From positions 4,882,473 to 4,946,472 of the forward strand of contig OY811979.1 of the NCBI GenBank assembly GCA_963681505.1: 64,000 nt of DNA. Direction: 5' to 3'. Position 1 is the first letter of the stretch; every line of letters begins with the position of its first letter. This document shows positions 4,899 through 28,286 of the stretch, one piece after another. The notes under the pieces are model-generated. The model was given only the letters and a program-made list of their open reading frames with translations, searched no databases and was not told where the DNA came from. A program made the position numbers and the translations under genes. Source of the stretch: Eunapius fragilis. Its lineage: Eukaryota > Porifera > Demospongiae > Spongillida > Spongillidae.

Positions 4899-6546
4899 GT
4901 ACATGTAGCTAAGGATGCTAAGTACACTCATAGGAGGGAGGACCACTGTGGAGAGATAGGTACATGTAGCTAAGGACACTAAGTACACCCATAGGAAGGA
5001 CCACTGTGGAGAGATTGGTACATGTAGCTAAGGACACTAAGTACACCCATAGGAAGGAGGACCACTGTGGAGAGATAGGTACATGTAGCTAAGGACACTA
5101 AGTACACCCATAGGAAGGAGGACCACTGTGGAGAGATAGGTACATGTAGCTAAGGACACTAAGTACACCCATAGGAAGGAGGACCACTGTGGAGAGATAG
5201 GTACATGTAGCTAAGGACACTAAGTACACCCATAGGAAGGAGGACCACTGTGGAGAGATAGGTACATGTAGCTAAGGACACTAAGTACACCCATAGGAGG
5301 GAGGACCACTGTGGAGAGATAGGTACATGTAGCTAAGGACACTAAGTACACCCATAGGAGGGAGGACCACTGTGGAGAGATAGGTACATGTAGCTAAGGA
5401 CACTAAGTACACCCATAGGAGGGAGGACCACTGTGGAGAGATAGGTACATGTAGCTAAGGACACTAAGTACACCCATAGGAGGGAGGACCACTGTGGAGA
5501 GATAGGTACATGTAGCTAAGGACACTAAGTACACCCATAGGAAGGAGGACCACTGTGGAGAGATAGGTACATGTAGCTAAGGACACTAAGTACACCCATA
5601 GAAAGGAGGACCACTATGGAGAGATAGGTACATGTAGCTAAGGACACTAAGTACACCCATAGGAGGGAGGGCCACTGTGGAGAGATAGGTACATGTAGCT
5701 AAGGACACTAAGTACACCCATAGGAGGGAGGACCATTGTGGAGAGATAGGTACATGTAGCTAAGGACACTAAGTACACCCATAGGAGGGAGGACCACTGT
5801 GGAGAGATAGGTACATGTAGCTAAGGACACTAAGTACACCCATAAGAGGGAGGACCACTGTGGAGAGATAGGTACATGTAGCTAAGGACACTAAGTACAC
5901 CCATAGGAGGGAGGACCACTGTGGAGAGATAGGTACATGTAGCTAAGGACACTAAGTACACCCATAGGAGGGAGGACCACTGTGGAGAGATAGGTACATG
6001 TAGCTAAGGACACTAAGTACACCCATAGGAAGGAGGACCACTGTGGAGAGATAGGTACATGTAGCTAAGGACACTAAGTACACCCATAGGAGGGAGGGCC
6101 ACTGTGGAGAGATAGGTACATGTAGCTAAGGACACTAAGTACACCCATAGGAGGGAGGACCACTGTGGAGAGATAGGTACATGTAGCTAAGGACACTAAG
6201 TGCACCCATAGGAGGGAGGACCACTGTGGAGAGATAGGTACATGTAGCTAAGGACACTAAGTACACCCATAGGAGGGAGGACCACTGTGGAGAGATAGGT
6301 ACATGTAGCTAAGGACACTAAGTACACCCATAGGAGGGAGGACCACTGTGGAGAGATAGGTACATGTAGCTAAGGACACTAAGTACACCCATAGGAGGGA
6401 GGGCCACTGTGGAGAGATAGGTACATGTAGCTAAGGACACTAAGTACACCCATAGGAGGGAGGACCACTGTGGAGAGATAGGTACATGTAGCTAAGGACA
6501 CTAAGTACACCCATAGGAGGGAGGACCACTGTGGAGAGATAGGTAC

Positions 6547-7140
6547 TATGTCCACCAGCCTCCAACAGTGTAAGCTCCCTCTACTGCTCCTGCCCTTCCA
6601 TGCTAATTTCTCTCTCCTTATGTGATACATGTATGAGCAATCCTAATTGGACAGGTCACTGTTATTTTGTATCTTTTGATGACCATATATGAATGTTGAC
6701 CTATGGGTAGATTGAGATAAGCAGTGCCTGGGTTAGGAGTAGAGCTACGGTGCCGCAGGCACAAAGTATGGCGCCGAAGGCGCCTCGTTTAGTAAGGTGG
6801 CGTTCATTCACTGGTGTTTGCGGCCCAATGTTTTGTGGACACTAGATCCGTAGTCCTGAAATGATTACGACCTTGACAACCGAAGACCTTTGGAACATGA
6901 GCTCACTCAAAAACACTGATGGAAAAATTGCCATTTTAACATGGTACAAGGAAAGGAATACCTTTTTTCTATTAGTGTCGCAAACCACGAGGCACCAGTA
7001 CCTCAGCCACCAGTACCAGTCTCATCTCAGCCACCAGTACCAGTCTCATCTCAGCCACCAGTACCAGTCTTATCACAGCCACCCTGTAGCTGCACCAGAC
7101 ATTCGACATGAATCACAGTATGGCTGGGCAGAGAGGTGAC
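6547..7140. other. Unique spacer with small hairpins and a 24-bp repeat
   Basis: Non-satellite sequence upstream of the Sp-type gene. Two tiny perfect hairpins lie side by side at 6750-6762 (GTGCC-GCA-GGCAC) and 6770-6784 (GGCGCC-GAA-GGCGCC). A 92-codon open frame at 6861-7139 (+) encodes three to four imperfect copies of an SHQYQSHL-type 8-residue unit, from a 24-bp tandem repeat at about 7000-7080. No family resemblance is visible and I do not call it a gene with confidence. Confidence 0.4.
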
Positions 7141-7280: not shown

Positions 7281-8703
7281 ATGACATCGCTAGCAAACGG
7301 TAGCTATTATGGCGATATTTCTGCCTTTGTAAGTACACAAAGAGTGTGTTAAAAATATTAGCTTATCAAGTATACCGTTCGTTTGTTTCGTAACTTCGCG
7401 CGTATACGCATCTTTTGTTGAGGCTTTGTAGCTACAAGCCTAGATTTGTGTATCATTCAGACAGCAAATTTTAATTTTGCAGAATGGAGCGCCATCGTCG
7501 GACCAGCTGACTTATTTTGCACAAACCCCGCTGACGGACAACGGTGTTAGGCTTTCGCACGGAATGAGCGAATGGTACGTGGAGCCCTCGATCGGTTGCG
7601 TTACTTACGACCCAACCAGAGCCACTCAGAGGCTCACCCACGAGCCCCCTGTGCTTTTGAAGATTTTACCGGGCGTTCAACTCCCCGAACTGATTCCAGC
7701 GCGCGAAGTGTGTAACGGGAGGACCAGCCACATTGGTTACGCCAACAACGATTGTAGCGAAACGAACACAATACCTGGCATGACGCTAGTGCCATATAGT
7801 TACTGCGAAGGTGCCGTTTTCGGCAGCTCCCAGCTACCTCCATGTATGGTTGATTTGAACGTTAACGTGCATTCACAATTTGCTGTTCCTAAACCCGAGC
7901 CTCCTTTCTTGGCGCCGTGTGCCTGCAACGCAAACGATTCTACCTGGTGGAACGCTGGACGCACAGGATGGTCCGCTACACCGCTTCTGCAAACCAGGCA
8001 TGCCGGCGCGCATTCTTGCCCGAGCAACTTCAAAGCGCTTTCGCCGGTTGCGGGAGACCCGGTGGCTCCGCTCGTTTGCCCCACGCAAGATGGCAGCTTG
8101 CCTCTGTATTCTGGTAGCGAAGTTACGTCACAGCTTGCGCATTCGGGGGTCTGGAGTGTGCCTGCGCTACAATATTACGGCCATGCGGACCAGGGGATCC
8201 AACGTAAGCGTGTTGCTTGCACGTGTCCCAACTGTCAAAGTGGCGTTAACTTAACATCCAACACAGATGGCTCGTCAAAAAAAAAGCAACACATATGCCA
8301 CTACCCGAACTGTGGAAAGATATATGGGAAGACGTCACACTTGCGTGCGCACCTTCGCTGGCATACGGGGGAGAAACCGTACATTTGCACCTGGCTTTAT
8401 TGTGGAAAACGGTTCACCCGCTCCGATGAGTTGCAGCGGCACTTGCGAACACACACGGGCGAGAAGCGATTTGTCTGTGCAGAGTGCTCAAAACGCTTTA
8501 TGCGGAGCGACCATCTCAGCAAGCACATCAAAGCCCACCAGAAAGGCGCGAAATACATAACCAGCGAATTTAGAGTGGCCAATGGTTTACCAGACGATGA
8601 CTGCGACGAGTGCAGCGAAGATGGCTCAATGGCTTCTCCCGCTAGCGAGGCATCGTGCAATGATGACCTCTTTGTATCACTTGATGGTGGCCCATGGAAT
8701 TAA
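7281..8703 (+). CDS. Sp-family C2H2 zinc-finger transcription factor
   Basis: Two coding exons: 7281-7328, ending at GTAAGT, and 7483-8703 after a TTTTGCAG acceptor. The junction is phase 0 and gives about 422 residues. A Buttonhead-type box, CTCPNC with flanking RKR, sits near residues 258-266. Three C2H2 fingers of the canonical 81-residue Sp/KLF block follow at about 286-368, with [34 protein letters not shown] and [12 protein letters not shown]. The finger contact residues predict GC/GT-box binding in the nucleus. A Btd box with these fingers marks Sp rather than KLF proteins. The N-terminal part is Ser/Pro/Cys-rich without clear domains, and the tail is acidic ([11 protein letters not shown]). 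The start in exon 1 is preferred because the longer open frame begins inside the intron. The orthologue group (Sp5/Sp8 or Sp1-4) cannot be decided. Confidence 0.9.
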
Positions 8704-9499
8704 CGGCTTCAAACTCATTATCACCGCGCATACCATGTTATTATTTTTTTTTTTTTCCAACACTTTAATTTAGGAACACCGATTTGTCATATTATAAGAG
8801 CAGCCACATCAGTTACATTTTTCTGTTCAAGTGCTATCACTTATTCCCCCCCCCCATTCTAAATTTGCTGTATTTATCTTTTTTTTTTTGACCAACATCA
8901 TATCAATATCTAATCATATCAATATCTATGTTGTTAATTGAAGGGGTGGGGCAGTATTAATCATTTGGATGGATTGTGGTTTTACTAACCATGTTAAAAT
9001 CTTACAATTGATATGCTAAAGAAAAGTTGCGGGTGTCCACGCGGGTTCGGAGCTAACTACTTCTTTCCGCCAATGCGGTATTGTTGGAAGACCAACAATA
9101 CCGCACTTCAGAGATGTACCAAACCGTCCTAGTAGCACTGTTGTTTCTTCTTTGGCGGCATGTTTCTTTTATATGTGACCGATATATGATCTACACAACA
9201 AAGACGAGGTGCGCACGTGACTATCACATGCGTCACTGCGTTTCCATGACTTCAAACTATCTTTTTTTAACGAGCGCCACACAATGGATTATTTGTTCAG
9301 CAGGAAATAAAATGTCACAGCGTAATAGTTTGTAGCGGTCTTTGGTAGCGGCAAGCGGGAGGACCCGGTGAAGCTTCTTCCGCAACTGCCTACTGTAAGT
9401 CTGCAGTAGCATTACCGGGTAAATAAACTGCCCCCTTTGGGTTGTAAGCTGTTGGGTTGGGGTTTTATTTATATATTTATTACTTTTCTTCTTCACCAC
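8704..9499. other. Intergenic, 3' side of the Sp-type gene
   Basis: AT-rich sequence with T and C homopolymers, probably the 3' UTR of the Sp-type gene at its left end. An AATAAA lies at about 9305. A strong hairpin lies at 9074-9105 (separate entry). No coding exon was recognised. Confidence 0.5.
9074..9105. repeat. Perfect 14-bp inverted repeat
   Basis: TGCGGTATTGTTGG and its exact reverse complement are separated by AAGA. This forms a 14-bp stem with a 4-nt loop, between the Sp-type gene and the dynein relic. No gene was assigned. Confidence 0.85.
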
Positions 9500-12400
9500 G
9501 GCAGCATCGTGAACAGGCCACCCCCTCGTTGAAACTATTTTCTGAGCCGCCCTCTGCTGGTAAAGATGTCATCCCAGCCCCACTCCTGCTGAACCTATGG
9601 TACAGAGACTATGCAAAAGTGCGACTTGTCAATCCAGTTATGTTACTCACTCACCCAAATGTGATGGATCTATCAGCCTATCAGAGCACAGTGATGAAGG
9701 ATATTGAAAGTGTTCGGATGTTACTTCTGAAAAAGTACGTCATGTGTATTACTATTGAGAAGAAGGTATCAGGTCAAGCCCTTCTAGGTGGTTCCCTGAG
9801 GTGCTGAGTATATTCTACATGGTTAACAAGAAGAAGCAGATTCCATTGAATCACTTGGATGGCGTCTTCAACTGTGTGTCTCAGGACTACGTGGAGGTGT
9901 TCTGCCCTGATGTAACCAAGTGGAGTATTCCTTGGGTTTCAGCTGAATGTGGTGGTGTTGAATTCCAGCGTGGAGTTTGAACCCAACTTGCAACTATTTG
10001 AGGTAAGTACATTGATCAGATGCTCTGTGAAGTCATGTAAACGATATCTTCCAGTCAGGAGTGCTTGGTGTGTTGGACAAAATGTTAGACGCAGTTAGTT
10101 CTGTCCCCAGAGTGGAGACAAAGCTTTATTCCACTGAGGGAACTCATCCAAAACCCAATCTGAAACCAGTGATTGATCCACTGGTACTTGAAAACGCCAA
10201 AGAAAAGGTATGCATGGACAGAATCACAGATGTGCTGGCTGTTTAACCCCCATCTTCCCTCTCACTGGCTGTCACCATTCCCCAATTCCTCCCTATCTTC
10301 CTCATCCCTCCCTCCCCCTCCCTCCCTCCCTCCCTCCTCTCTACAATTGCAAGGGATGCTTGGTGCAGCCATACACACAAGGAGTACATCAAACAGTTTG
10401 ATAAGTACAAACCACTGATCAACAAAGAGGTGGAGTCTGATGTTGAGAAGTTCCTCCAGGAGGAGGGCCACACCTTCTCAGACTATGAGAAACAGGTGCT
10501 GTGGAATAAGGAAATGCTGGATGAAATGAATAAAGTGTTACTTATAATCAACTGATTTGGTGATAAGACTTGGTCTGCTGCAATGCCCCCAGCAAGTTTA
10601 TCCCCACCTCTTTTGGGTATATGTATGTGTGTGTATGTAAGGATCCAACCCAGTACAGTGTTGGAGAGTGAAGTGTGTGTGCATGTAGCCAGGAGGAGGG
10701 GTGTGTGTGAGTGTGTGTGGCTGGCAATTAACACTTCAGTGCATAGAAACCTGTCATGTAATAAACACATTTTCAGTGTTCTAGAACTGATTTTTATAGC
10801 TGGTCCTGGTACATATGATTAATGGTACTGGTACATGTGCTGTGTGTAGACCACATTTTGCACACACATCCTGCTGTTCCCACTTGCAAACTTCTGTATA
10901 GGAATGCAGTGTGTGCATGTGGTGTGCATGTGTATATTGTGTGTGGTGTGTGTGTGCATGTGTATATGTGGTGTGTGTGTGCATGTGTGTATGTATGTGT
11001 GCATATGTTAGCAAGTGTGTGATTTTGCAGTGTTCAGCCTCACCTGAAGTAGTGCTTTGAAGGGATTGCATCATTGGAGTTCTCCAAAGACCTTGATATC
11101 AGACACATGAAGAGCTCTGAAGGAGAGGTAAATGTGAAGGTGGGGATGTGATGGGGTCTAGTAGGTGGGAGTGAAGCTATGAAGGGACAAGAGGCAATAC
11201 ATGTACATAAAAGTAAATAGTCTTGGAACAGTGTGAAGGGGCTATGGTTATCCAACCTGACCAATGTGAGAGGCACCTGATGGCTTGATGGCCTGATGGG
11301 GGAGATAACTGTGGGACAAAGAGAGATGAGACAAGTGATAGGGACAATAAACATGTGTTGATGGTGAGGTGACCAGATTATAGAGACATTGGTGAGGAGT
11401 GTGATTAGATGAACACTGATACCAATTTGGTCCACTGCTCACAGGTTGTAGTCTCTTGTGTCCACCTTGAAGGCAAGGGGACAGGTGGAGAAGTGGTTGG
11501 TTGAGTGATGATAAGAAGTCTTCACAGGACATTGAAGATTCTATTAAGGTGTATGCAGCCACCAAGAGGACAGACTGGGTCATCTCTTGGCCCGGGCAAG
11601 CCGTACTGTGTGTTTCTCAGACATTTTGGACTACATATGTGCACTAGTCCATCAGGAAGGGCCCAGAGGCCCTCAAACAGTACCTGGAGCTGAACAATAC
11701 GACATAGTAAAGATGGTGAGAGGTAAGCTGAACAAACAGAACAGAACCACACTGGGAGCACTGGTCGTGCTGGATGTACATGCAAGAGATGTTCTGGCTA
11801 TCCTCGTGAAGGAAAGTGAGTCATGGGGTGTAAAGGGGGGGGGGGGGGGGGTGGAGAAGGAAGGTATCATTCAGACGTGGGGTGCTGTTTCAACCTTCAG
11901 ATGTGACTAGTGAACAGACTCCCAGTGGCTTAGTCAACTGCAGTACTACTGGGAAGAGGAAAACATGATGACAAGGATGATCAACTCCAAGTTGGCCTAT
12001 GGCTATGAATATCATGGCAATTCTGGTGTGTGCATGTGTGTGTGTATGTGTGTGTGATCTATGTGTGTGTGTATGTGTGTGTGTGATCTGTGTTGGTATC
12101 TTTGTTAATGCAGATGCTACTGTACACTATTTGGAGCACTGCATTTGCACCTGGGGGGAGCCCCTGAAGGTCCTGCTGGTACAGGAAAAACAGACAGTCA
12201 AAGATCTTGCAAAGCAGTAGCCAAACAGGTACCTAGACCTATATGTTATAGCTGCCCAATACCCTTTACAATACTTTTCACATGCACCTTCTTACCTCAT
12301 ATGCGAGTGTGATAGCTGATGTGTGCATGTGGTGTGGTCTCTGTGCATTGGGTGTGGTCTCTGTGCATTGGGTGTGGTTTCTGTACATTAGATGTATTGT

Positions 12401-12580
12401 TTTGCTAGTGTGTGGTGTTCAACTGCTCTGATTGGCTGGACTATATGCCTGGGGCAAGTTCTTCAAAAAGGGTTGGCATCCTGTGGAGTGTGGTCCTGCT
12501 TTGATGAATTTAACAGAATAGATCTGGAGGTGCTCTCAGTGGTGGCCCAGCAGATCCTTACCTTCAGAGGGCAGGGTTTC
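9500..12580 (+). pseudogene. Axonemal dynein heavy chain, broken unprocessed copy (stem to AAA1)
   Basis: Scattered exons with intron remnants match an axonemal dynein heavy chain from the late stem into AAA1. They include a stem segment at 10380-10550 (KEYIKQFDKYKPLI), [18 protein letters not shown] at about 11563-11615, a [20 protein letters not shown] segment at about 11718-11780, INSKLAYGYEY at about 11968-12010, the AAA1 P-loop GPAGTGKT at about 12160-12190, and the Walker B region [19 protein letters not shown] at about 12497-12555. A working copy would power ciliary beating. This one has an in-frame TAG before [11 protein letters not shown] (about 11053), a TAG after TFWTTYVH (about 11646), a frame change near 11692 and small indels in the P-loop exon and at about 12450. 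It stops at about 12580 in a poly-G tract at the retroelement junction. The retained introns indicate a duplicated gene rather than a retrocopy. Which DNAH paralogue it is remains unclear. Confidence 0.8.
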
Positions 12581-12649
12581 ATCGAGGGGGGGGGGGGGGG
12601 GGGGGCAGCCCCCCTTGCCATTATATTGCCCCCCCTTGGTATTTATGGA

Positions 12650-14758
12650 GTGATCTTTAATAAATGCATCATAACTACACAAGTGATGAATACAACTTTA
12701 CTTAATAAAGTTAAACCGCAATCCTTCGACCTTTCTGCTACGCCCCGAGATAATTTCAAGATATCCCAATTGAAGCGAAGCCTTGAAGAGAAGCTGCAAA
12801 CGCTAACTAAGTGCGATGAAGAAATTCTGTCACTGGTTCCGGAAGGCGACATCGAAGAAGAGATAGTTCGGGCGGACAAAATCAAAGAACGACTGTACAA
12901 CGCCTTATCCTTGTTAGAATCCTCTTCACAGATGGCTTCTTATCCTACCAACGCTAGTCCAGTCGCTATAGAACCGTCCACTGCAACAGATTCACCTGAT
13001 GTGGATCCAGGATCACCTCGAGGAGCCAAGGTGCGACTACCCAAAATCTCTTTGCCTCGGTTCAGCGGTGACCCATTAAAGTGGACTACGTTCTGGGACC
13101 CATATCAGTCTGTAATTCATTTGAATCCTGACATTAGCAAAGTCGACAAGTTCAACTACCTGCGTTCTTTACTTGATCACACAGCTCTTGACTCTATCGA
13201 TGGACTGACTCTCTCATCAGCCAACTACCAGCAAGCCATAGACATCCTTTCTAAACGATTTGGCAACAAGCAGTTGATCATTTCAAAGCACATGATACTT
13301 TGTTGAACATTGATGCTATTATCCTCTGACCGAAACTTCAAGGATTTGCATCGACTGTATAACCACACCGAATCTCACATCCACAGTTTAAAGTCTTTGA
13401 GAATTGAATCTGCTTCTTATGGAGCTCTCCTTGCACCCGTCTTATTGTCCAAGTTGCCACCAGAACTGAGACTCATTGTGAGCAGAAAGGTATCAGACTC
13501 CAATCTGGACATGGATGCATTGCTAGCAACATTTGAGAAAGAATTGACTGCTAGGGAGAGAGCAAATTCTCAATCCTCACGACATGGTCAAGAAAGAGTG
13601 CAGCCTACAGTCTCTACTCTGTTCTCTAGTTCCCAGAACGTGAAGCCTAATCCACAGTGTTGCTACTGCCTGCAGAGTCATCCATCCACAAGCTGCACAT
13701 GTGTGACATCTCCTGCTGATCGCAAGCAAATCCATAAGACCAATGGACAGTGTTTCAACTGCCTACGCCGAAACCACACATCTATATGTGATGCCAATCT
13801 AAGCCGACCATCCAGCTCATCTCACTCTGTCCAATCTGGATTAGCCCCAGATGCATCATTAGTTCAGGCAACTCAAACAACAAGCACACTATGTTCCCAC
13901 AATCAACAGGTCATACTCCTGCAGACAGCCAAGGCAGTTGTTCACCAACCACATGACCCACATGTCTCACTTGAAGTGCGTTTGATTCTCGATGGTGGCA
14001 GCCAAAGATCGTACATCACTGAACGAACCCAACGTCTACTGAACCTAAAGGCTTCCAAGGAGCAATCGCTCTCTATAGCAACGTTCGGGTCAAACGAGGG
14101 CAGTACAAGGGTATGCCCTGTTGTTGACATTAGCCTGTGTCTGAGAGGTTACCCGTCTATGCTGCTCTCAGTCTATGTGGTGCCCACCATTTGTGAACCC
14201 TTGGTTAGGCAGTCGGTATCTGCGTGTGCCAATCAGTTTCCTCACCTTCTTGGACTAGAATTGGCTGATGTCCAGAGCACTGGGTTGAGCATGTCTGTGG
14301 ATATGCTAGTGGGATCTGACTACTATTGGGAGTTGGTGACGGGGAGCATCTGCAGAGGAGTCAGCGGTCCAGTAGCAATACACACGAAACTTGGTTGGGT
14401 GTTGTCTGGTCCATCCTCCCACGAAGATCCTGGACAGTGTGCTATGAACTTGAATGTTACTCATGTCCTACATGTTGATTCATGTCAAATGGAGCCTCAA
14501 ACATTGGAAGAGCAACTTCGAGCATTTTGGGAGCTGGAAGCCCTCGGAATACCAGACAAGGAGAAGACACTCTACGACACTTTCACAAAGGCTGTCAAGT
14601 TTGAGAACGGCAGGTACAAGGTTCCATTACCTTGGAGGGAGTTCCACGATTCATTGCCAGACAACTATCAACTCAGCTTAAACAGACTTCAAGGCCTGCT
14701 CCGTCGACTGAAACAAGACCCTGCAGTTCTCAAGGAATACACTGCTTCTGGCAAGTGA
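12650..14758 (+). mobile_element. BEL/Pao retroelement, truncated gag-protease-RT start
   Basis: The translation shows a BEL/Pao Gag-like region ([16 protein letters not shown] at about 13038-13085, DUF1759 type), two Cys/His-rich knuckles at about 13658-13795, and a DUF1758-type aspartic protease with LILDGGSQRSYI at about 13982-14020 and GSDYYWELVTG and KLGWVLSG further on. The N-terminal edge of the reverse transcriptase region follows at about 14500-14755. The reading frame is interrupted around 13290-13325, including a TGA at 13304, and ends at 14758. The RT core, RNase H and integrase are missing, and no LTR pair was identified. The element is therefore a dead fragment. It lies directly against the dynein relic and shares its frame across the junction. 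Confidence 0.85.
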
Positions 14759-14879
14759 ATGGAAGGGAGGAGTGTGGAGTACAGACATTGTGAACAATAG
14801 TAACTAATATTAGGGAGTGGGTGTGGTGTGCGTGATATAGAACATTTTGGATTGTAGCATGCTAACAGGTTGATTTGAG

Positions 14880-14991
14880 AATCCACTATCATCGTGTTGT
14901 GTGGACTTCACAATTCCTGCTGGAGGATGATAGTGGAGTGTGCTGGTTACTTGCCCAGAACAGTGATGGTACAGAAGTGGTATCCCTCAGG
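14880..14991 (+). other. Possible orphan coding exon
   Basis: An open stretch encodes VVWTSQFLLEDDSG and then CWLLAQNSDGTEVVSLR, and ends at a good donor (CAG|GTATGT at about 14991). The codon pattern looks protein-like, but there is no family match and no partner exon was found. It could equally be a chance ORF next to the dead BEL element. Confidence 0.25.
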
Positions 14992-15461
14992 TATGTAACA
15001 GGTACCAATGCTGGACCAGAACAAGAGTCACGCCCCTAATGAGTACTAGGCATCACATTGTCTGTCACTTAGTGGGATGGGGAGGGGGAGGGGGGGGAGT
15101 AAACTACATGTACTAACATTCAAGCACATAGAATGCATTCAAATCCAATATGCTGGAAGTGCACACTGACACACAATGTTTGTACACCAGGGACACACTT
15201 CATTAAATAAATGCTTGGCCATTCCCCCTTGCCAGGATAGGCCACTCCCCTTGCCACCCCCTCAGCAGGAGGCAAAACCAGACAACTCAAAACAACAACC
15301 TATCTACCTCCCTGCTGCGAGGACACAACAGGCTTGATATGGTACAATGTGCAAGCTTTGATGTAGGGGGGACAGTGGGAAGGGAGAGGGAAAGTGGGGA
15401 GAGTACACTGTTAGACGACAAAATGTACCACCGGGATGACGTCAGGTAGACATTTTCTTAC
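14992..15461. other. Gene-poor spacer
   Basis: G-rich runs at about 15078-15100 and 15366-15400, with no recognised exon. It may hold the downstream intron of the minus-strand gene at 15462-15741. Confidence 0.3.
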
Positions 15462-15741
15462 CCAAGCTCTCAACCAGGAGGGTCTCTGATGGGTCACCTA
15501 GTTTGTGGTCTTTGGTAAGGACCTTGGCCATGACTGCTGGTTCTCCTGGCATGTGTCTGAATGGGTTATTGATAGCTGTGGTGAAATGTGAGTGCGTGTT
15601 GTGTAGGAATCCATGTGCGCGTGTCAATGGAACCACACGAGCGTACCTAGAACGGCCGTTGGGTCCCCAACGTTCGCTACAAATATCTTGTCCTGTCGGA
15701 AAATGACCGCCGACATATTGATGTCGAAATGGTCGACCCAT
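15462..15741 (-). CDS. 5' coding exon of an unrecognised gene
   Basis: A minus-strand open frame starts at ATG 15741 (MGRPFRHQYVGGHFPTGQ) with a G at +4. It runs about 93 codons to a consensus donor TTGG|GTAAGA at 15462/15461. The frame also extends upstream to an ATG at 15780. The peptide is polar and rich in His, Pro and Arg, with no signal peptide, membrane segment or repeat, and I cannot name it. Downstream exons, which should lie below 15440, were not found. A perfect TGACGTCA-like site is nearby (GATGACGTCA at about 15435). Confidence 0.4.
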
Positions 15742-16208
15742 GTAAACATTTTGTAATATTTCATAATAATTATCAAACAATTGAATACGGCAAATTGAAC
15801 CACGTTGGTGTTACAGCTACGTCGATGTTATCTCTGGTCGCTAGTACAGCCAGGTCATGGGGTCTGCAAACAGTCATGTGAAAGTGATTGATGGGCATGT
15901 GCACATGAGGTGAGAGTGACGGGTGAGACAACAATTAGTGTGTACTTACGCATACGTATAGGGAGGTACAGTATCGTGGCGGGTTTCCACGAGCGCGTTT
16001 ATTTATAAAGTTGATGACGGGGACTAGCAGTGAAATCCACTCCCAGTTTAGCGCGCTACGCACTCCAGTTATCCAGAGCACTACAGCTGTATGCACTCCA
16101 TACACAATGTTGTAAATCTATATACGACTGTGGCATATGGATCGTCTAGCAATCTAAAAATGGATTGTCTGACAATAGATACAGTGTACCCATAAAAACA
16201 TGTCTCTA

Positions 16209-16410
16209 TTAGTATTGGCGGTATATAGGAGGATGAAAGACAATGATGGTGTAAAAAGCACAGAAACAACCATTTTGACAGAAATTGATGGAAAGATAAT
16301 ATCCCTCAGCTTGTTGCTGAGAATTGTGCTATTTCTATCCCTCACCGCCTCACGTCTGTGCTTTTTACACCACCAATGTGTTTCAATCATCAACCTTTTC
16401 ATATAGAAAG
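16209..16410. repeat. Foldback element (MITE-like)
   Basis: TGGTGTAAAAAGCACAGA at about 16238-16255 has an exact reverse complement (TCTGTGCTTTTTACACCA) at about 16356-16373. Outside it the arms are looser, and inside there is a CTCAG-CTTGTTG-CTGAG hairpin at the centre. The GGTGTAAAAAGC core and outer GGTATATAGGA resemble the larger foldback at about 56141-56360, so both may belong to one family. No transposase is encoded. Confidence 0.6.
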
Positions 16411-17180
16411 TTTTTATGTACTTGTTTTTGAAGTTTTTAGGCGTAGCATGATCATATCAACTTAAAGGGGAAAAGTGTTACAGCTGATACTTTATTAAAT
16501 TTGAATTCTCCAGGTTTGGTTAATAAATATGTAGTTACATGGGAGAGTAAATGTTACATTGTTTTACCTGCAGATTTATAATATAAAATGCCATGGCCAG
16601 TTTTTAAAAAGGCATGCTACATCAGGTGAACATTTGAAAAACAAAGCTTACATGTAAGTTCATTTGATTTTAAAATAACAGATATTGTAAATTTGAATAA
16701 ACTTGAAAATTTGCATTAATTCGTGAGCGGAAATTTTATGTGCCTGTAATAGTCATGCACGCACACACATCGCATACATATGCACATGCACAGCACGCCT
16801 GCAGTGGCAATTTGAGATTCATTGCAAAGTTGCTGTGAGAACAAAGTAGAGAAAACTAGTACATATTCCAATGAGAACTCAGAAATAATTAAATGTGCAA
16901 ACTATAGTTTTGCCTCATTTTCCTTTCCCCAAAATCTTGCTCCCTTTGGCGTGAACTTATTCTTTTCTTCTCAGTAAGTATTTATGGCAATAGCATGCAT
17001 AAAGAGAGTGTGACTTTCACTTGCAGCAATTTAGTTGTAAACTTTATTAACGCTCCATCGATAGCAATATTTAAAACTTGTGCCTCATGACCCTTGCATA
17101 ATGAAGACTTCTAATAGTGCATGAATGTCTGAAATAGCAGTGAGCTAGAATTGGTACCTTTGGTGTATGATGTGACATAC
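16411..17180. other. AT-rich spacer
   Basis: No exon was recognised on either strand. The stretch presumably includes intron or 3' sequence of the RAG1-N-terminal-like gene to its right. Confidence 0.3.
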
Positions 17181-18310
17181 AGCCTCATTATTCCAAGGTA
17201 TGGCAAGTCTGCCTTAATCGTCAATACCTGAGCTGCCCCAGGCTCAATCGATGATGAGATTCCTGCCTTATCCAACAAAGATCGCCTCTCTTCCTCGCTA
17301 AGGATGAGGACCTCTTTTTGGATAAGCGCAGATGCTTCTCCACCACTGACAATGCCTGGGATTTTCTGCATTTGAGAACATCGCAACTTTACAGTCCGTG
17401 AGCAGGCAGCTGTGGTTTCTTGGTGAGCTCTGGTAACACGCATGAATGTCATTGGCTAAAGTGTGTGTAGATATTGTGTAACCTCAGTACAAGTCAATGA
17501 CATTCACTTAATTGTTCCTCCTGTAGGAAGTTGTATGATGCCTTTGTCAGGACTGGTAGAGATGGCCCTCTTCAGCAATCCCACTGCTTGCTTCCCCTCA
17601 GGTGTAAGTGATGGTACACAGTCATGCCCTTCATAGTCACCAGCCTTAATATCCCTGCTGCAGTCTGTACAATTTACCAGAACATACGATAGCAGCAGGA
17701 GTATCACACCTGGTGCTTGTCTGATATGGGAGGGAACGCATGGAAGTGCTCATATACCTAAACGCCATGATGTCATATGTTTGTTTACTTAAAACATATG
17801 TGTACTGTTTACCTTGCATTCTTGGTCTGTATGTTTTAGCCAATTAAATACGATCACTGCACATTTGTAATGGACTCCCTTTTCGATGGCACTGATGGTT
17901 CTCTGCATTGAGAGCTGACATTGCTTGCAAAACATCTCCGGGTGAATATTGACATCATCCCCAGACGTGTCGATGTCAAAAGCAATTTTCAGCTCAGCTG
18001 AGAATACTTTGCACTCATAGCTAATACCCTTCTTTGCCCTGTACTTCGTTAGCCTCTGCCCACAAACTCTACAATGTATGGGAACTTGTCGGTTGTGGTA
18101 ATCCATACCTGTAATCATGTATACATGTAGGGACAAACCACAACACATGTCGATTATTCATGCAATTTGCTCAGCTTGTTTGTGGTGATAGAAAACGTGT
18201 CACCACATCAGGTTTGCCAATACTTATAGCCACATGCCTCCTGATCATCGCTGCAGTATGCTTACCTTCCAGCTCGGTCACCAAAGGCCACGTTGCATTG
18301 TCTAATTTAG
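17181..18310 (-). CDS. RAG1 N-terminal-like (N-RAG) zinc-binding gene, partial
   Basis: Minus-strand exons at 18108-17813, about 17710-17509 and about 17433-17181. A probable non-coding first exon ends at a GTAAGC donor at about 18266. The first coding exon has CRVCGQRL, then FDIDTSGDDVNIHPEMFCKQ and VFNWLKHTDQEC. This Cys/His layout follows the zinc-binding N-terminal region of vertebrate RAG1 (CRICG, then a SIHPxxFCxxC stretch, then WxxHxxxC). The second exon has NCTDCSRDIKAGDYEGHDC, and the third has SGGEASALIQKE and LLDKAGI before a GTATGT donor. Such domains without the RAG1 recombinase core occur in invertebrate 'N-RAG' transposon-like genes. No catalytic core is seen here, and the 3' end is not found. 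The second-to-third exon junction closes in frame only if the acceptor is the CCAG at about 17434. Confidence 0.65.
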
Positions 18311-20788
18311 TAACGCCCCCCTTCTAATTACGTGCCGCGTGGCCTTATGAAACGGTATGCGCATGCTATCTATGTGGGATGTGAATTGTGCGCATCTATT
18401 GGACATGCCAGGAAAGGGAGTGAAGTGTTTGGGCTCGTTGTAATTTTTTGATTTGCTCGTTCTGCTGAGTCATGGTCACCTTGTAAACATTGGATGTCTA
18501 TAATGAGGCATCTTTTTAGAATGATGTGTTAATACCGTAAATGATCTAATTATAGACCTAGTTTCCAGCCGCATACAACCGTGCCTTAACAGTTAACCTA
18601 TAACCTGCAATAAAAATGCTGATAATTGGATATACGGAACAAATGGCGGTCTTAATTTATTTGCGAAACGCAAATGTTCTATACTCATGTTGTAATCACA
18701 ATTACATGTCATGTTATGTTTAATGTTATCGACCTTGTCATAATCCTTGCAATGGCCTTTGTGAGTAAGTGCAGTGGTGGATGCATGACATCATTTGATT
18801 ACTGTTCCCTGTCCCTTGCCCCCCACACCGCCACCTTACTTTCTGCAGTGGGGATTACGGGGCCACACCCCCACCTCTAAGCAGTGCCCTCCTGGTACAC
18901 TGGCTGGCATGGATATTGTCAGGTGGGAAACAAGTGTTTACATGTTCAATGTATGTACTTGTACTTTTAAGAGTTAGGAAACAGTGAACCAGTTTACCCC
19001 TGTGCGATGGAATCTCAGAGGGATTGTGTTTACAATTGCTTTTTCCTTGCCCCCATTTATCCACAGCACTACGGGTCCTGTGGAAGGTACTGTGAGTGGT
19101 TAAGAGGTGGGAGAGAGAGGACTATGAGGGATACAAGCTAGTTGTATGGTACCATTAGAGATAAAACGTTGATGAAGATTTTACCCATTGGAACATTTTT
19201 TCTCCACGAAAATGTTTGATGTTACACTTTCACACTTCTGTTACAGTGTGGCAACATTGCTGTGTTTGCAACTTGCATGCAGAGTGGGAGGGTGGGTATA
19301 CACAAGTGGGAGTGTTTGATGTAGTTTCTCTTTAAATTCTAGGATGTGATGGTTGAGCAGCCAGCATGTGTTGAAGATATCACATGCTGGCTGTAAAAAT
19401 TGTACTGAATGGCTGTATGTAATCTTGCAGTATACTGATGTGATGTGCCCAGTTTCAAGATTGCCACTTCAAGGGTGTCTTTATCCATTCTTTGCAGTGC
19501 ACTGATATTTAGTTCCTTAGTATTTATTTTATGTATGTGTGTAGTATTATTATACATGTATGTACAAGTATGTGTTTGAGTTGTATATTATGCTTGTCAC
19601 AAGATTTACCACTTTATAAACTTAGAAGAAAGCACTACTTGTACACTGTATAGCAATAATATACACGAACATGTGTCATAGGGTGTTGGTAAAAAGGCCT
19701 GCATACTTACATTGTGTACACATACAGATAAGATCAAAGGCGCCAAAGTATTAAAAAGTACCGCAGCGCTGAAAAAAAAAAAAGGATTCCATGGCCGTAC
19801 TCGTATACGTAAGTTTTAAGAAGAGTGCTGTAGGCATGGTAGTAACCTCTATAACGCGTTTGTCGACCAGTGTTGTATGTGCGAGACCTATACGTGTCGG
19901 GTGATTTCGCCATGCCACGAGATAGTGTCTGCATGAGATAAAACATCGCCTGCTTGCTTTGTTAGCCTAGCCCTAGGTATACTATAGTCTCTGGCCGTGA
20001 GACACCAGCTCGTTTCACGCACAAGACTGAGATGTCATAAAAAAGCGCTGGGTGGTCAGCTATGCGCAGCAATTTGCAAATGATGGTAAAATTGATTTGC
20101 ATTGAACGGGTACATGGCTCCTATGTTGATGAGGGGGACGTGCGACTGTGTTGGCGCGTATACACGGTGCTAAGCAAGAGACGCCTTTGGTTTATCTTTA
20201 CAGTCCTACGTTACATGTACAGCCAAGCAAAATTATAGCATTTAGCAGGGCATTATAATGAGTCGAAAAAGAAAACGGACAGCACCCCCCCCCCCCCCCC
20301 CCCCCCCCCCCCCAGGTTGAATCGACCTGTCAAATGGCGCCCCCTCATCCTATCCTGGCCCCCCCCCCCCCCCCCCCCCCCTCTTTCCGGGGACGCCCAT
20401 GCACTCTCAAGAACAGAACAGAGCATTTATAAAAACTCTTACAGACTTACTTAAATATAATGCTGTTTCGACTTTTATAGTAAGTTTGATCAGCCTATGA
20501 TTTTTAAAAAGCAACAAATATATCGCTACCAATCAGATATATGGTAGACTGACCTAAACCTAGTCAGAGCCATCTCCCGGGCCATACTCTCCAGATCTTG
20601 CATGGCAGGTTAATCTTTTCTGTGCATTTTCTGTGTCTGTGTGTATATGTTTGACATTTTATATAATAAAAATAATAACTATGAATTTTATACCACAAAT
20701 TCATACAACAATATACATTATACCATATAGGAATATATTGTATAAACAAGTATTTAACTATTTAGTAAACTATGTAACTATGTATGAG
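18311..20788. other. Gene-poor spacer with hairpin and poly-C tracts
   Basis: No coding exon was recognised. A perfect 13-bp inverted repeat CAGCCAGCATGTG, with a 10-nt loop, lies at 19358-19393. Two poly-C runs of about 30 and 20 bases lie at about 20284-20313 and 20361-20380. The first follows AACGGACAGCA, as does the poly-C in COP1 intron 1 (about 27968), so a shared mobile element is likely. Confidence 0.5.
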
Positions 20789-20799
20789 TCAACCAACTA

Positions 20800-21148
20800 G
20801 GTAGAGGTCTGAGAATTTAGTACGGGGACCTGCGCTTGCAAGAAATGCTCTGGCATTCGAGCACACAAGGGAAAGGTTTAGTCTGGAATAAATGCTGTCC
20901 AGAGTGGTGGAAGTGGAGGAGTTAACCTGGACTGAAAGGCAGGAAGCAAGTTTCTTGAATGTGTTAGAGGCTAGTTGGCCCCAGGTCCCAAATGATTCAA
21001 CAACAAGGGGTATGCAATTCCAGCCTAGTTCTTCACAAATCGCTGAATTTGCTTGTATCCTTCGCTGTTCTGTGGCAAAGCTGCAGAGCCTGCTGTGTGT
21101 CCCGCTTCGGAAACTATCTTTAAAAAAAATGATAATGATCCTATGCAA
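20800..21148 (-). pseudogene. LINE fragment, C-terminal endonuclease tail
   Basis: The minus-strand translation contains ELGWNCIPLVVESFGTWG and YSRLNLSLVCSNARAFLAS. I recognise this as the conserved C-terminal tail of a LINE group in invertebrates whose reverse transcriptase is followed by a restriction-like endonuclease. Only the tail remains. The right end lies about 35 bp from the hAT-like MITE at 21184. A separate RT piece of a similar element lies at 40.6-42.4 kb. Confidence 0.55.
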
Positions 21149-21183
21149 AATTGAGTCATAAAAATGAACTAAGTAGCTACATG

Positions 21184-21609
21184 CAGGGTTGCCGAAAGTC
21201 AGGCTGGGGTCCGGCCTGCCAGGTCGGATAAATTGATGTTATTAAACAATTTATTAAAAATTCATGGCTAACCACAAAACATTATGGTATTATTAAACAA
21301 TTTTTTAAAAATTCATAGTTAACCATAAACGTAATTACCCAGTCGCCACGTTTAAAATTCATAGCTAAATTAACTGCGTGCCTAAGGACTAAGAATGACT
21401 AATAATTTCTGTAATCTGTAATTTGTAAATTGTAACCATTACCAGCTGATTATAATAACTATATTACTATATATAGCTATAGACATCGCAAAATGAATTA
21501 ATAATTTGTGGGTGGATCCCAGCCTGCTGGCCTGTCAGGTCATGGTCCGGCCTGCCAAGCTAAGCTAAATGTCCGGCCTGGCAGACCGGACTGGCCTTCG
21601 GCAACCCAG
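21184..21609. mobile_element. hAT-like MITE
   Basis: The left end CAGGGTTGCCGAAAG and right end CTTCGGCAACCCAG are inverted. They extend inward as GGTCCGGCCTGCCAGG-like sequence against GGCCTGGCAGACCGG. The flanks GCTACATG (21176-21183) and GTTACATG (21610-21617) form an 8-bp target duplication with one mismatch, as in hAT elements. The interior is AT-rich with a roughly 40-bp direct repeat (TTATTAAACAATTT and AAAAATTCAT at about 21238 and 21293). No ORF is present, so it is non-autonomous. Confidence 0.75.
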
Positions 21610-22143
21610 GTTACATGTACTAAAACATGTGAATGATCGTTTGGCTTTACCTGTGGAGGAAATCTGCAAACCCATGCATCCCAGAAAAACTGCCTTATTA
21701 TTGCAATACATAGATCCTGTAATTCTCATAATTGTGGGGGGGGGGGGGGTGGCGCTTTCTGGACGAGGTGGGGTACAATGGGTGGGCAGGGCACGCCTAC
21801 TCCCAGCTAGGGGCTCCCCCATGCGGGTCACGGGGGAAAAGCCCCAGCCGCTTTGCAACTTTCGCACTTTTCAAGTCACAATAGATAGCATATAATTGCG
21901 TAGAATTAGAAACATGCTAAGATAAAATACACTGCTTCCAGACCTACTTTCATTATCGATATACAGTATCCGCTAGATAAATAGATCAGGATATTTAACT
22001 ACATCCTGTGGGCTGGGACATTTCTACTGCTATCGGAAGAATCGTTGCCTAGTGTAGTGATCATTATAGTGTAAGAAGCCCCTGTAAATGATGCAGCAAC
22101 GAAGCTAGTTTCATTTTCCATTTTTCTACTACGTTTTGTGTAG
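21610..22143. other. Spacer with G-rich element remnant
   Basis: A poly-G run at about 21735-21750 is followed by GGGGCTCCCCCATGCGGG and GGGGAAAAGCCCC, like the G/C-rich MITE cores at 51.6 and 54.4 kb. The region may contain 5' exons of the gene at 22144, but none was resolved. Confidence 0.4.
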
Positions 22144-23403
22144 TGTATTGAGCATGAAAAGCTGTCAATATTTGCATTTGGGTATTGTGATATCGCTAAT
22201 ATTCCAACACCAATAAGTAGAGAAGCCATATACAAGGATAATTCATTGTCACAATCAGGTATGCTTTGTTTTTTTTTTGCATCCAGCCATAATGATTACA
22301 CTATGTAACTTTATTATTTAGCTGCTCAAATGTGGTGTCTAATGAGAGCAATGCCACTTATCATTGGGGATCGAATCCCAATTGGTGATGAGAGATGGAA
22401 TAATTTCACCCAACTTCTGTCCATCATGGATTATATATTTGCTCCAAAGATAACGAAGGCATGTTTGGTATATTTTATTGTGACAGTTTTTACTATGTGT
22501 GTTTATTTTTATGCAGGCAATGCTTGATGAAATGCCAGACATGATCCATTCATACCTTGATACCTATCGAAGGCTGTACCGTAAACGTTTAACCCCAAAG
22601 ATGCACTATTTAGTACATCTGCCAAGCTGGATAAAAAAGTAAGCCCTAGTGTATATATATATAATTTTATAATTTAAAACCTGTTGTATAGGTGCGGTCC
22701 ATTGTCAAATATGTGGAGCATGCGATTTGAAGCCAAGCATCAGTATATGAAACAATTAGCTAAGGTCATTGGCAACTTTAAAAACATCGCCAAAACACTC
22801 GCAAAGAGGCACGCTCAATTCATGTGCTACCAGCTAATGAAACCTGAGAAATTCCTTTGTAATCAGGTTGAATCCGGGAGAGGTAAGCACTATATACAAT
22901 TATACATTATTAAAATTGATTACAAATATTACAGCTGTGCAAATGAAAGTTTGTGAATTCAAGGAGGCCGAGACAATAAGTGACTGCTTTGGTGTAAATC
23001 CACAAACAAATGTGTATAGGTAAATTTATAAATCATGCAATCATAAAAAGTTAATGCACTTCTTTTTTCCAGAATGAAAAAAGTTGCAATGAAAGGAACC
23101 GAGTACAATGTTCAGGATGTTGTCCCATTGGTTTGCAACGATGTAGTTCCAAAGTTTGGTACAATACAGTACATGCTACACTTTGAGGACAACCCAAAAC
23201 AAATTTACTTCTTACTACAAGAGTTGGTGACAGTCACATATGACAGTCATTACCACGCATATGAGGTTCAACAGGGTTCAGCATCAATTATTTGCCAACA
23301 AGAAGCCTTTCTCGATCATCAACCTCTGGTTGTCAACGTTTGCTTTGATCGTACCGTCCATGAGAAACGTTTTGTTCGTGTTAGATATGTTTATGTTCCT
23401 TGA
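22144..23403 (+). CDS. CACTA/EnSpm-like transposase-related gene, 5' incomplete
   Basis: Exons join in frame without a stop: 22144-22258, 22322-22467, 22517-22638, 22692-22882, 22935-23019 and 23073-23403, ending in TGA. All introns are 48-62 bp with GT-AG ends. The protein has AAQMWCLMRAMPLIIGD, then PKMHYLVHLPSWIKKCGPLS and WSMRFEAKHQYMKQLA. The HYLVHLP...GPL...MRFEAKH pattern resembles the DUF4218-type C-terminal region of metazoan EnSpm/CACTA transposases. The N-terminal catalytic part would lie upstream and was not found. A polyadenylation signal AATAAA follows at about 23426. The intact spliced frame argues for a recent or domesticated copy. The family name rests on remembered motif similarity. 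Confidence 0.6.
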
Positions 23404-24513
23404 GCTGCCACATCTGTCTTTATAAAATAAACATCTCATTTTGACAATCAGATCTGTGGGGTGGGCTGATCCATTCCCATCAGATATTTGTGAGCATGCA
23501 AGGTCAACCATACACATGCACATTGGAAGGTGTTGATCCAGATATTGACAGAGCGGGAGTGGACAATGGAGGGAGATGGTAAGGGTATGGAACGTACAGG
23601 AGTTCAAGGTAAGGTGAGGAGTCTGGGTAAGCCAGAGGGAAAAGATTAATGGACCTTTTTTTTATGTTGAGGAGTTCCCTCTTAGGGTAAGGAGCTCGAG
23701 TGGGGGACTAGTCACTCAGGATGAAGACCTAGTAACCAACCTAGTCATCAAGGCCCAAATCTGCTGTTCTACCAGAGCTGTATGGCCGACTCAATCTGAA
23801 CCTAGTAAGGGCTAATGTGAGGGCTATAATGTCCAGATATTGCCCTCAAGATTACTTCTGAAGTGTTATTTAGTTTTGGTCATGTTTTTGTATGTCATAT
23901 AATTGGATCTTGTAATCACAATAATATTAAGAAAAATAACAGTGTGAGGGGTACGGTGTGTGGAGGGTATGTCACATACCTCACCTAGTGCCTGCCTCAC
24001 ATCTGTAGCTTAGAAATATGAATGTATTACAAATACGCTCGCTACTAAAGTCCAACTGATTCTACGATGCAACAGCAATAGTGTGTATTGTGTACACCCA
24101 GGCATTACGATGACCAGTGGCTAGAGAGTTTTAAAAAGGCTTCCCAGGGTAGGGTATTAACAGTCAAAAGAGCAGATGGCAATAAGCATGACAAAGCAAC
24201 GACAGCCAGATCTTGGGTGGGTGTGTGGGTAGGTGGAGGATGTAGATGCTTATCTCTTAGTGCAATAAACTAAACAAGTGCTGCTTCTGGGGGCAGTGTT
24301 GCTGCTGCTACTGCTAGTGGTGGGGGCAGTACCAGCACACTACACAACTGCCACGTGACCAGGAGGTTCTCTCACACATCCCTTCCCAAGATCTCTTTGG
24401 TAGAAATGTTTTTCTGATGAACACAATAAAATGACTACAAACGTTTGATCATCAGCTCAACACATCTCCAACACCTTATATGGAGAAGGAGAGACATAAC
24501 AAGTGTACCATCT
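23404..24513. other. Intergenic between convergent genes
   Basis: The 3' flanks of the CACTA-like gene (+) and COP1 (minus) meet here. A short open stretch at 24099-24215 (+), HYDDQWLESFKKASQGRVLT, follows an acceptor-like CACCCAG. It looks protein-like but has no partner exon or family. Confidence 0.35.
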
Positions 24514-26603
24514 TCAATTAATGCGCACCTTGATACATCCTAGGCTGTTAGAAGCGATGATTATATTGGAGTCCTGAAAAACGGAAAACCATCCTATGCA
24601 ATATTTAAGTTTAGAGGTAAAAAAAACATACCTTTCTCCATCGCACGGAACTGACAAAGTTATTAAGGTCCTTGCCACCTACGGGAGTACTGCTTGTGTC
24701 GGGCTGCAGTACATTGTAAGAGAGCTAGCTGATGTCACATAAGTGGAGTACCTAACCTAATTCATAATTGCCTAGACTACCCAGTATGTGCTGATCCCCT
24801 CTACCTTCTCAGGAGTATGTGTTGATACTCACCAGCATATTGTGTCCTACGTTGAACGTGTACTTGAGCATGTGGTTGGAGACTTGCTTGCAATACACGT
24901 AGAAGGAATTGTTCTCGCTGCCTGCAGAACAATGCTGTTCATGAGGCACTACCTTTTTTTTTGCAGGAACTCACCACATGCAATAAAGTGTGGGGTAACA
25001 CTGAGACCTACAAATTTTTTTTCGTTGACATGTCCCTTGTATGTCCTCACAATGCCCTTATTGAGGTCCCAGAGTTTAAGTTCACTATCAGTTGACCTGC
25101 AAGAAAGGTATGCGCACTAAACTGTGTGCGTGTTATTGGATGGCACTTACGCTGATACGAGCTCCTGCGAATTAATAAAATGGACATACGATACAGCTTT
25201 CCGGTGACCTTTGAACTCTGCCACAGGTTCTGAAGGTTTCCTCAAGTCCATGTAGTGCACTATGTTATCTGTTTGAAAGCAGCAAAGACATCACTGATAA
25301 TATGGGGGTAGGAATTTATACATACTATTGCAGACACTAACCCAAGAACCACCTAAGAGCAAAGAAGCATTACGGGATTTCCATTTACACAAACACACAT
25401 GCACCCACTGCTATGAAGCTAACCAGCTGATCCATAGGCAAGGTTGTAACAATTTGTAGGGTGGAACTGAACACAACATACATTATCCTTTGTTGGGAAC
25501 GAGTAGCAACTCTGCGGACGATTGGAAGACCACAGTTTCACTTGGGGGAGGAAGTAATTCATTTTTAACCCTCTGACCACAATATCAATTATAATCACCT
25601 GTGCAATCCTCTGACCCAGAGGCAAAAAGATTGGGTTCTGTTGGGTTATATACCACTGACCACACCCTCTTCTCATGCTCCTACAAGATCCAAGAGTCAC
25701 ATAGTCATCTTCCAAGAGTGCCTTCCTTACCTGGAACTTCACAAGGCGTGTGCCAGTACTGGTGTCCCACACACATACAGCACCATCATAGTTACTGGAC
25801 ACAAGCCGTGCCTTGTGGTACGGGTTGTAGCATAATGAGCTGAGTGGATTGGTATGGAGAAAGCTTGATTCAATGGAGTAGGGTTATGGTTATGCTATTC
25901 CCATTATGCCCATCCTCCTGGACTTAACCACCCACATATCCCATCCTCACCTAAGTTTGCCTGTACAGGTCATCTCCTGTTCTGGAAAATGGTTGGTGAA
26001 TTCCATGGCTTTTATTACAGAGTAATAGTTGAAGATCTATGAGGTAAGCCATACACAGGTCTCACCCATATATACATTCACGCATTTTCTTTATCCTCTT
26101 GGATACACCTGCAACTGCAAAGTAATCACCATCTTTGTCAAATTCTATGCTTGAGACGCTTGAATTCCCATTAGAATCGGAATAAACCAGCCCTGAGAGT
26201 TCTCTGAAGGTACTGTATCGCGTGAAACGATACAGGCCATCACAGAACTGGTGTAGTGTGTCATCAGAACCCTCTGCTAAAGGTAAGGAAATATCTACAA
26301 GACCGCATGGATCAAATGGCATACACATACTTGCGTCCATAACAGGCATCCGTGTTTCAAAATAGTCACGGCTAAGATCAGTGATGTTAGCCTCAACACG
26401 CATGTTGCGCATATTAAGGATGGTGGACAGAAGTGTCACATTGGATTCTGGGACAATATGTGTCTGTTTCTGTTTGAGGTTTAACAGGTGCAAGAAGGAT
26501 TTTTAAAAAGACGACAATGACAGTACCTTAAACTCTGCAATGTCTTTCTCCACAACAACCAGTCTACTCTGCAGTTTTTCAGCCTCCTATGGGAACCACA
26601 CAC

Positions 26604-26665
<62 letters not shown>

Positions 26666-28286
26666 GGGTTAGTGGCCAGTAGACCTATACAGTACCTACC
26701 ATCACTGTAACCTGTACAGTTCTCTGGAGGAAATGCAACATAGTTGCACTACATATATATTCCTCTTGCTGCAACAGGGTGGGTGTATACAAGTGGTTAT
26801 AAGGTTAAGGTGACAGCTTGGTTTGCATTGAAACAATGATCATATAGTTAGATAACGTTAATAAAAATGTGATTTGAAGATTTGATTACATGTGGATTTA
26901 AGCAAAAAACATTCCTGTCATAGTCATCACACAATAGGCCGACCCATGCACACACACTCCTAACCTTGTTTCTGCATTGAACCTGTTCTATCAGGTTACT
27001 ACAGAGCTTCCTTAGTGTTTCTATGGCAACAGTACACCCTCACTGAGAACACGAGAGTGACTGGTTAACATACCACCATCGTTTATTTGACTAATCATCT
27101 CCCGGATCTCCCGGACATCAGGGGTCTGTGGGTCCAAATCAGTTGCCAACACACATGAGCCTCCTCTCATAACTAACCTTCTGTATCGCTTCACTTGAGA
27201 TGGACTGGATGGACTGCTGTCTGTATTTGGTCACAATGTCATTCACTAAAGACAGAAGGAATCATGTGCATATCATGTGATTGCCCCCCCCCCCCCCACC
27301 AAAAGGTGCTCACATGAGAAGTTGGGATGAATAGGACTTTGAACACGCAATGAAGTCTTGCACACTGGGCATTCGGAAACTTCTCCCAAGACTTTGTTAA
27401 TACACTTGAAACTAAATTGGTTCAAATACAGCATTACACACAAGCACACGTGCATTATAAAAAAGCAAATACACATGCACATACGTGCATGCACACATAT
27501 ACATATACATGCATACCGCCATGCTGCACATAATTTCAAACAATTATTATGCAAAGCCCATACATGTGTAGGCAACGTTCCATCCTTAGATAAAAAGATT
27601 TGATAACACATGGATACAGATACTTGGATAACTAACCAGAAACTGTGGCCACACACAGTAACGTAGACTTCACTTAAGATTGCATTGCAGATGGGACTAA
27701 TAATAAGATATAAGAATAATCACATTTGCTTACTATTACGCTGCTACCCTCTACCAACTGGCAGCCCCGCCCCGGATCCAGCATAGGCTCGGTGGGGGCA
27801 GCCGCCCCCCCCCCATTCATACGAAATGCCGCCCTCTGGGACCAATTGCCGCCCCCCCCCTCCCGCTCCATTCCCCACGCACTATCACGCGTGCGTGCAC
27901 AAACCAAGATATAAATCATCGTACGGCAAGCAGTCGCCCCCCCCCCCCGCTTTTCGTATCGGGCCTAAAACGGACAGCACCCCCCCCCCCCCCCCCCCCC
28001 GCTTTTCGTATCTGCCCCTGGCTTCGCATTCATTCATTGTCAATGTGCCACCCCCCCCCCCCCCCCCCTTAGCCAAATCCTGGATCCGGGGCTGCCAACT
28101 GGAGATACATAACTTCTTAACAAAGGACTTTACCCTGTAAGTTTTACTGACAACCAACTAGTCGCTTATGGGAAAACATACGTACCACGTAAAATCATTC
28201 TGTTGCAATCTGGGGTCCGTACATGAGCCGGACTCTCCATGATTGATCTTCCTTTTCTTTTTGGGCGGTCCTTCGGATAGAGCCAT
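24514..28286 (-). CDS. COP1: COP1 E3 ubiquitin-protein ligase
   Basis: Eighteen exons read minus-ward: 28286-28186, 27696-27637, 27411-27314, 27245-27178, 27125-27074, 27020-26965, 26768-26700, 26586-26527, 26469 to about 26075, 26036-25951, 25839-25731, 25680-25599, 25540-25424, 25268-25151, 25096-24975, 24921-24833, 24703-24632 and 24573-24514, giving about 600 residues. Exon 1 has PPKKKRKI, an SV40-like nuclear signal. Exons 2-3 rebuild the RING ([25 protein letters not shown]) with its metal ligands split across a phase-2 junction. Exons 4-8 are helical and coiled-coil-like. Exon 9 holds [20 protein letters not shown] and [20 protein letters not shown], typical of COP1. Exons 10-18 form WD40 blades ([58 protein letters not shown]). 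Known COP1 ubiquitinates transcription factors in DET1-linked CRL4 complexes. All junctions close in frame except exon 9/10. Confidence 0.92.
26601..26660. repeat. (AC)n microsatellite in a COP1 intron
   Basis: An uninterrupted AC run of about 55 bp lies just upstream (minus sense) of COP1 exon 8. It reads as (GT)n in the transcript. Confidence 0.95.
27758..28098. mobile_element. C-rich MITE in COP1 intron 1
   Basis: The terminal inverted repeat is GGCAGCCCCG...GGATCCAGCAT on the left and ATCCTGGATCCGGGGCTGCC on the right. AACT flanks both ends as a possible 4-bp target duplication. Inside are four poly-C runs, and CGCTTTTCGTATC occurs twice (about 27948 and 28000). It has no coding capacity. 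It sits between the first two COP1 exons and must be spliced out. Confidence 0.65.

Follow-up and report, generated by a model that had tools for sequence, protein, structure and literature searches.

A RAG1-type zinc domain in a truncated transposon copy

The window, the whole 64,000-nucleotide stretch of contig C9 of the sponge Eunapius fragilis analysed here, contains on its minus strand a truncated copy of a Chapaev-type DNA transposon (17129..18583, blastn) that runs from the 5′ end of the element to intron 3 of its gene. An intact 5′ terminal inverted repeat, CACGGTTGTATGCGGCTGGAAACTAGG (18557..18583, minus strand, 0 mismatches; C9:4901029-4901055), precedes exon 1 (17813..18106, minus strand), which contains an ATG, is open for 98 amino acids and encodes a RAG1 N-terminal-type (‘Chapa’) zinc domain. 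The CRVCG / DIDTSGDDVNIHPEMFCKQC / FNWLKHTDQEC arrangement lies within this single open exon. Against Pfam, the exon matches PF12560 (RAG1_imp_bd; E 9.4e-8, 32.4 bits, cut-off 23.3), and three RAG1 sequences top the 13 PDB matches listed (best E 5.3e-6). Judged by these matches, the RAG1 N-terminal-type zinc domain in the window is real and beyond chance, and the resemblance to the RAG1 N-terminal region claimed in an earlier note on this DNA holds.

The remainder of the copy is decayed. It is 93-97% identical to loci L004-L008 and L009-L014 on both sides of a deletion in exon 2, where comparison with the full copy L012 reveals 313 bp missing between 17737 and 17738, and with them the RING finger; L004-L008 hold the missing sequence and extend past the point at which the window copy ends. 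Because 313 is not a multiple of three, the deletion shifts the reading frame. What is left of exon 2 (17508..17757, minus strand; 250 of 566 bp by alignment to L012 and L004-L008) has a further 3-bp deletion relative to L012 and, at its start, a Tyr in place of the first Cys (VCEHF to VYEHF). Compared with L012, exon 1 carries five substitutions, and the exon 3 remnant (17181..17429, minus strand; 249 of 261 bp) has lost 1 bp and 11 bp. Homology to the element ends with the intron 3 remnant (17129..17180, minus strand), stopping exactly at the AG acceptor, so the catalytic exons and the 3′ inverted repeat are absent. Position 17181, the left edge of the feature in the earlier note, is the end of model exon 3. 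The description of the feature as an apparently intact gene does not survive this comparison, since the copy is frameshifted, internally deleted and without homology beyond 17129, and belongs, as a 3′-truncated relic, to a multicopy DNA transposon.

The dead copy lies inside a segmental duplication (13199..22162, no strand assigned) that is 99% identical to C9:8802957-8811944 and has another copy at about C9:5.93 Mb. Two loci with the same flanks on the same contig, L027 and L028, are 99.5% and 99.4% identical to it over 9.9 and 7.5 kb, respectively, and since its truncation the copy looks to have been multiplied only passively, within C9 segmental duplications. At C9:9.57 Mb lies L033, a duplicate that has diverged further (pieces of 92-98% identity); it shares the 5′ flank, lacks the 313-bp deletion and carries a different deletion of about 70 bp. 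The form without RING and core is thus the product of later decay, not an ancestral architecture. Window positions 9000-27000 as a whole are a mosaic of segmental duplications, largely on C9 itself, and the matches listed for this range include six on C9 that exceed 1.5 kb, with identities of 97-100%.

Elsewhere in the window, a 61-bp satellite array occupies 1-6551 (main part 510-6551, with about 98 copies), and a GC-rich 18-bp minisatellite with about 624 repeat units and a strong GC skew spans 29321-40580 and is open in several frames, up to 2105 codons. An open frame of 419 amino acids (7444-8703, plus strand) contains three C2H2 zinc fingers and, by eye, presumably resembles an Sp/KLF-type factor. 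Retroelement-like gag/protease open frames were recognized by eye at 12392-14758 and 42742-44232 (plus strand); part of the former (12732-14740) has copies of 88-94% identity on other contigs. In the host genome, two loci on contigs C10 and C5 match silicatein with Ser for the catalytic Cys (QCGASYAF and QCGSSYAF; approximate query), and a cathepsin L-like gene on C17 reads GSCWAF. Serine-type silicateins are a sponge trait, and these silicatein-like genes support the ‘probable sponge’ that had been guessed as host from the DNA.

Full-length copies, their ends and their gene

The host genome (219 Mb, 24 contigs) yielded at least 151 matches to a 97-amino-acid exon query, ranging from 100% down to about 30% identity; the figure is not a copy number, as scoring covered 150 of 562 candidates and some copies are represented by two separate pieces. 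DUF1280, the Chapaev transposase family, has 131 matches in the same genome, and the end repeat occurs at 111 sites with ≤3 mismatches, against none for a control pattern read backwards. The family is thus multicopy. Twenty regions of about 10 kb were fetched and aligned, giving both ends for 11 copies, 10 of which are 4367-4530 bp long; L021 (5623 bp) apparently holds inserted sequence. The copies aligned at their ends have inverted repeats with CAC...GTG termini (CAC at 11/11 5′ ends and 12/12 3′ ends listed), although in L011 the 5′ CAC sits one base inside the listed edge. An exact 4-bp target duplication flanks nine of the 11 copies (TAAC, GAAT, AGGC, AGGT, AAAG, TATG, CTCT, CCCC and ACTA), with that of L019 located in a C run; no matching 4-bp duplication was found at L010 and L021. 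These 4-bp duplications differ from the TWA 3-bp pattern of Chapaev3, as that pattern is given in PMC4079192. The terminal repeats that the earlier note had proposed looking for are therefore present in the full copies, together with target duplications.

For two of nine sites, those of L016 and L013, the joined flanks were searched as 180-base queries, and empty sites with one copy of the target were found for both. With L016, all 40 places scored match over 180 of 180 bases, six of them at 100%; with L013, all 40 cross the join, mostly over bases 1-133 and none past 141 of 180. Both copies were evidently inserted into other repeats. Over 4391 bp, copies L011 and L012 differ at 0.27% of positions (99.73% identity), and their target duplications are different, a combination that suggests recent movement of the element as read from these sequences.

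In the full copies of family A, 11 exons join in phase into a frame of 941 amino acids. This spliced frame is open in three of the six family-A copies read (L010, L011 and L012), whereas L009 has one stop and L013 and L014 have several lesions, L014 also being cut short. The 10 model introns are GT-AG in L009-L012, with one AT acceptor in L013. Splicing, as claimed earlier, is thus plausible, the introns being predicted from sequence. All 11 exons were also located, each in one or more copies, in three other subfamilies, whose overall identity to L012 is 76, 62 and 39% (39% for L024); L022 and L026 lack several exons. In a distant subfamily (L023 2462-3424, also L024 and L025), the RAG1-like domain and the RING are encoded in one uninterrupted frame, whereas an intron separates them in the other modelled subfamilies. 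A 622-amino-acid open frame at L029 was rejected as a real copy, as it is a short DUF1280 piece reading into satellite.

A RAG1-like front end and a Chapaev core

With a profile built from the alignment of four spliced proteins (A1), the top hit among 121 PDB sequences, 60 of which were shown, is RAG1, matched as a single segment over residues 102-376 (E 4e-15). The match spans the CxxC, HP..FCxxC, W..H and CxxC motifs, the RING and the following zinc finger. Among the RING proteins shown, RAG1 chains come first, and 1rmd alone scores 6.1e-9. By Pfam, the RING of the full copies is detected by PF00097 at 21 bits, exactly at the cut-off of 21, and by PF15227 at 23.3 bits, under its cut-off of 30. 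RAG1_imp_bd was found in three of the four members at an E threshold of 0.01, missing one, and scores under its cut-off in the subfamily B copy L017 and in L022. DUF1280 (PF06918) was found in all four (best E 1.4e-16) and lies above its cut-off in the member tabulated. The absence of a recombinase core, part of the earlier claim, hence applies to the window copy only; full copies have a Chapaev (DUF1280) DDE core downstream.

Within this core, D463, D533 and E886 are invariant in A1 and would be the catalytic residues, as assigned by motif. The accompanying motifs are C552-x2-C555, LH at 621-622 and H860-x4-H865, which read YPCLYC, PPGLHI and HLLEDH in L012; LH and H(4)H are invariant in the four A1 rows, and row L016 has a gap at C(2)C. 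Between the second D and C(2)C the distance is 19, equal to that between D708 and C727 in RAG1, and between H(4)H and E it is 21 versus 20 in RAG1. The D-D-C-C-H-H-E spacing arose in 4 of 20,000 shuffles, in a test that was designed after the motifs had been seen and does not give an independent probability. No hit to the RAG1 catalytic core occurs in the 60 displayed of the 121 PDB matches to A1, and direct alignment of A1 with the RAG1 core by hhalign was not significant (36 columns, E 0.15, probability 0.4%). The link between this core and RAG1 therefore rests on DUF1280, the motifs and the literature. In genome contigs of bacteria and archaea, a pattern scan found 18 matches; none was confirmed as a relative.

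Structure prediction for the N-terminal half (alignment A2, 14 rows) produced a poor model, with a mean pLDDT of 44.9 and pTM of 0.32. In Foldseek searches with this weak model, RING-zinc-finger modules of TRAF5/TRAF6 and LNX took the first ten places, ahead of the RAG1 dimerisation domain (1rmd; rank 11, E 1.8e-3). The model, also proposed as a check in the earlier note, is compatible with a RING plus zinc finger and is not specific to RAG1.

Known elements, alternatives and the origin of RAG1

Chapaev elements are characterized by CAC...GTG termini, target duplications of 3 to 4 bp and a transposase with DDE, C(2)C, LH and H(4)H motifs, according to the account in PMC4079192. By sequence, the full sponge copies appear to have every hallmark of the superfamily that could be checked, and their CAC ends with 4-bp duplications are as that account gives for Chapaevs generally. 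DUF1280 is equated with Chapaev transposases and placed in one clade with RAG1 in PMC3985635, and PMC12730594 lists EnSpm, Mirage, Chapaev, Transib and RAG1 as sharing C(2)C and H(3-4)H. The name of the zinc domain comes from PMC4411706, where the truncated RAG1 N-terminal part of the TransibSU transposase is called the ‘Chapa domain’, after Chapaevs. There, the domain is identified in lancelet and sea anemone Chapaevs, and two Chapaev subgroups are described in which a RING comes after the Chapa domain, as in RAG1. In the sponge element, compared with this published description (PMC4411706), zinc domain, RING and Chapaev core stand in the same order and the host is different. Among literature titles and abstracts on Chapaev, the Chapa domain or RAG1-like sequences in sponges, no sponge report was found. 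The Chapa-RING-core architecture is already known in other animals, and the present element adds a sponge host.

The window feature is, with a probability of about 95%, the dead remnant of a sponge cut-and-paste transposon that belongs to the Chapaev superfamily. The single gene model of full copies predicts a protein in which a RAG1-type zinc domain and a RAG1-like RING, with the zinc finger after it, are joined to a DUF1280 core. By analogy with its family, the spliced transposase would bind the ends of its own element, excise it and reinsert it at a target cut with a 4-bp stagger. In RAG1, the zinc/RING front end has dimerisation and ubiquitin ligase activity, and its sponge counterpart probably dimerises the protein and may serve as a ubiquitin ligase. 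In the window copy, the 5′ end survives, the 3′ half and the RING are gone, and frameshifts have been acquired.

Three other readings were weighed. That the feature is a domesticated host gene with a RAG1 N-terminal-like domain and no transposase, as first proposed, would accord with the open exon 1, which gives the same protein in three copies, and with the GT/AG sites kept at the exon ends of the window copy; these three identical copies, however, sit in near-identical segmental duplications, and the frameshifts, the lost zinc-ligand candidate, the 313-bp deletion, the at least 151 related matches and the 111 end-repeat sites make such a gene very improbable. A transposon holding the zinc domain and nothing more would resemble N-RAG-TP of Aplysia, which was reportedly described by Panchin and Moroz in 2008. 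That element likewise combines a RAG1 N-terminal-like domain with a transposon and is described in PMC8355894 with that domain only, and the window copy alone has this look; the sponge gene model, however, continues into RING and transposase, with the core in the same gene model of full copies, which refutes this reading for the sponge family and leaves it the least credible of all. A RAG1-like (Transib/ProtoRAG) element would explain the N-terminal architecture common to the sponge element and RAG1, including the match to residues 102-376 with zinc motifs, RING and following zinc finger (the 1rmd region), and the similar D-D-C-C-H-H-E spacing. It too is highly unlikely, as the core differs from that of vertebrate RAG1 in being Chapaev-type, matching DUF1280 rather than the RAG1 core, and the target duplications are of 4 bp versus the 5 bp given for Transib in the literature. 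The Chapaev assignment is therefore preferred.

A bearing on the origin of RAG1, as the earlier note had suggested, is real; in PMC4411706, however, it was already argued for the lancelet and sea anemone Chapaevs. We tentatively consider, as a possible but rather doubtful scenario, that a complete RAG1 front end, with zinc domain, RING and the zinc finger behind it, joined to a RAG1-related DDE core was already present in transposons of the earliest animals and has been kept vertically by sponge Chapaevs. If true, the RAG1 N-terminus would be an ancestral part of the transposase and not a later graft. According to PMC4079192, Chapaev families have been transferred horizontally on repeated occasions, so occurrence in one sponge alone gives no date for the architecture. 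With this element, the known range of the Chapa-RING-core transposase architecture comes to include a sponge, and its several subfamilies, with some copies open, provide material for a rooted comparison of the RAG1 N-terminal module with its transposon relatives.
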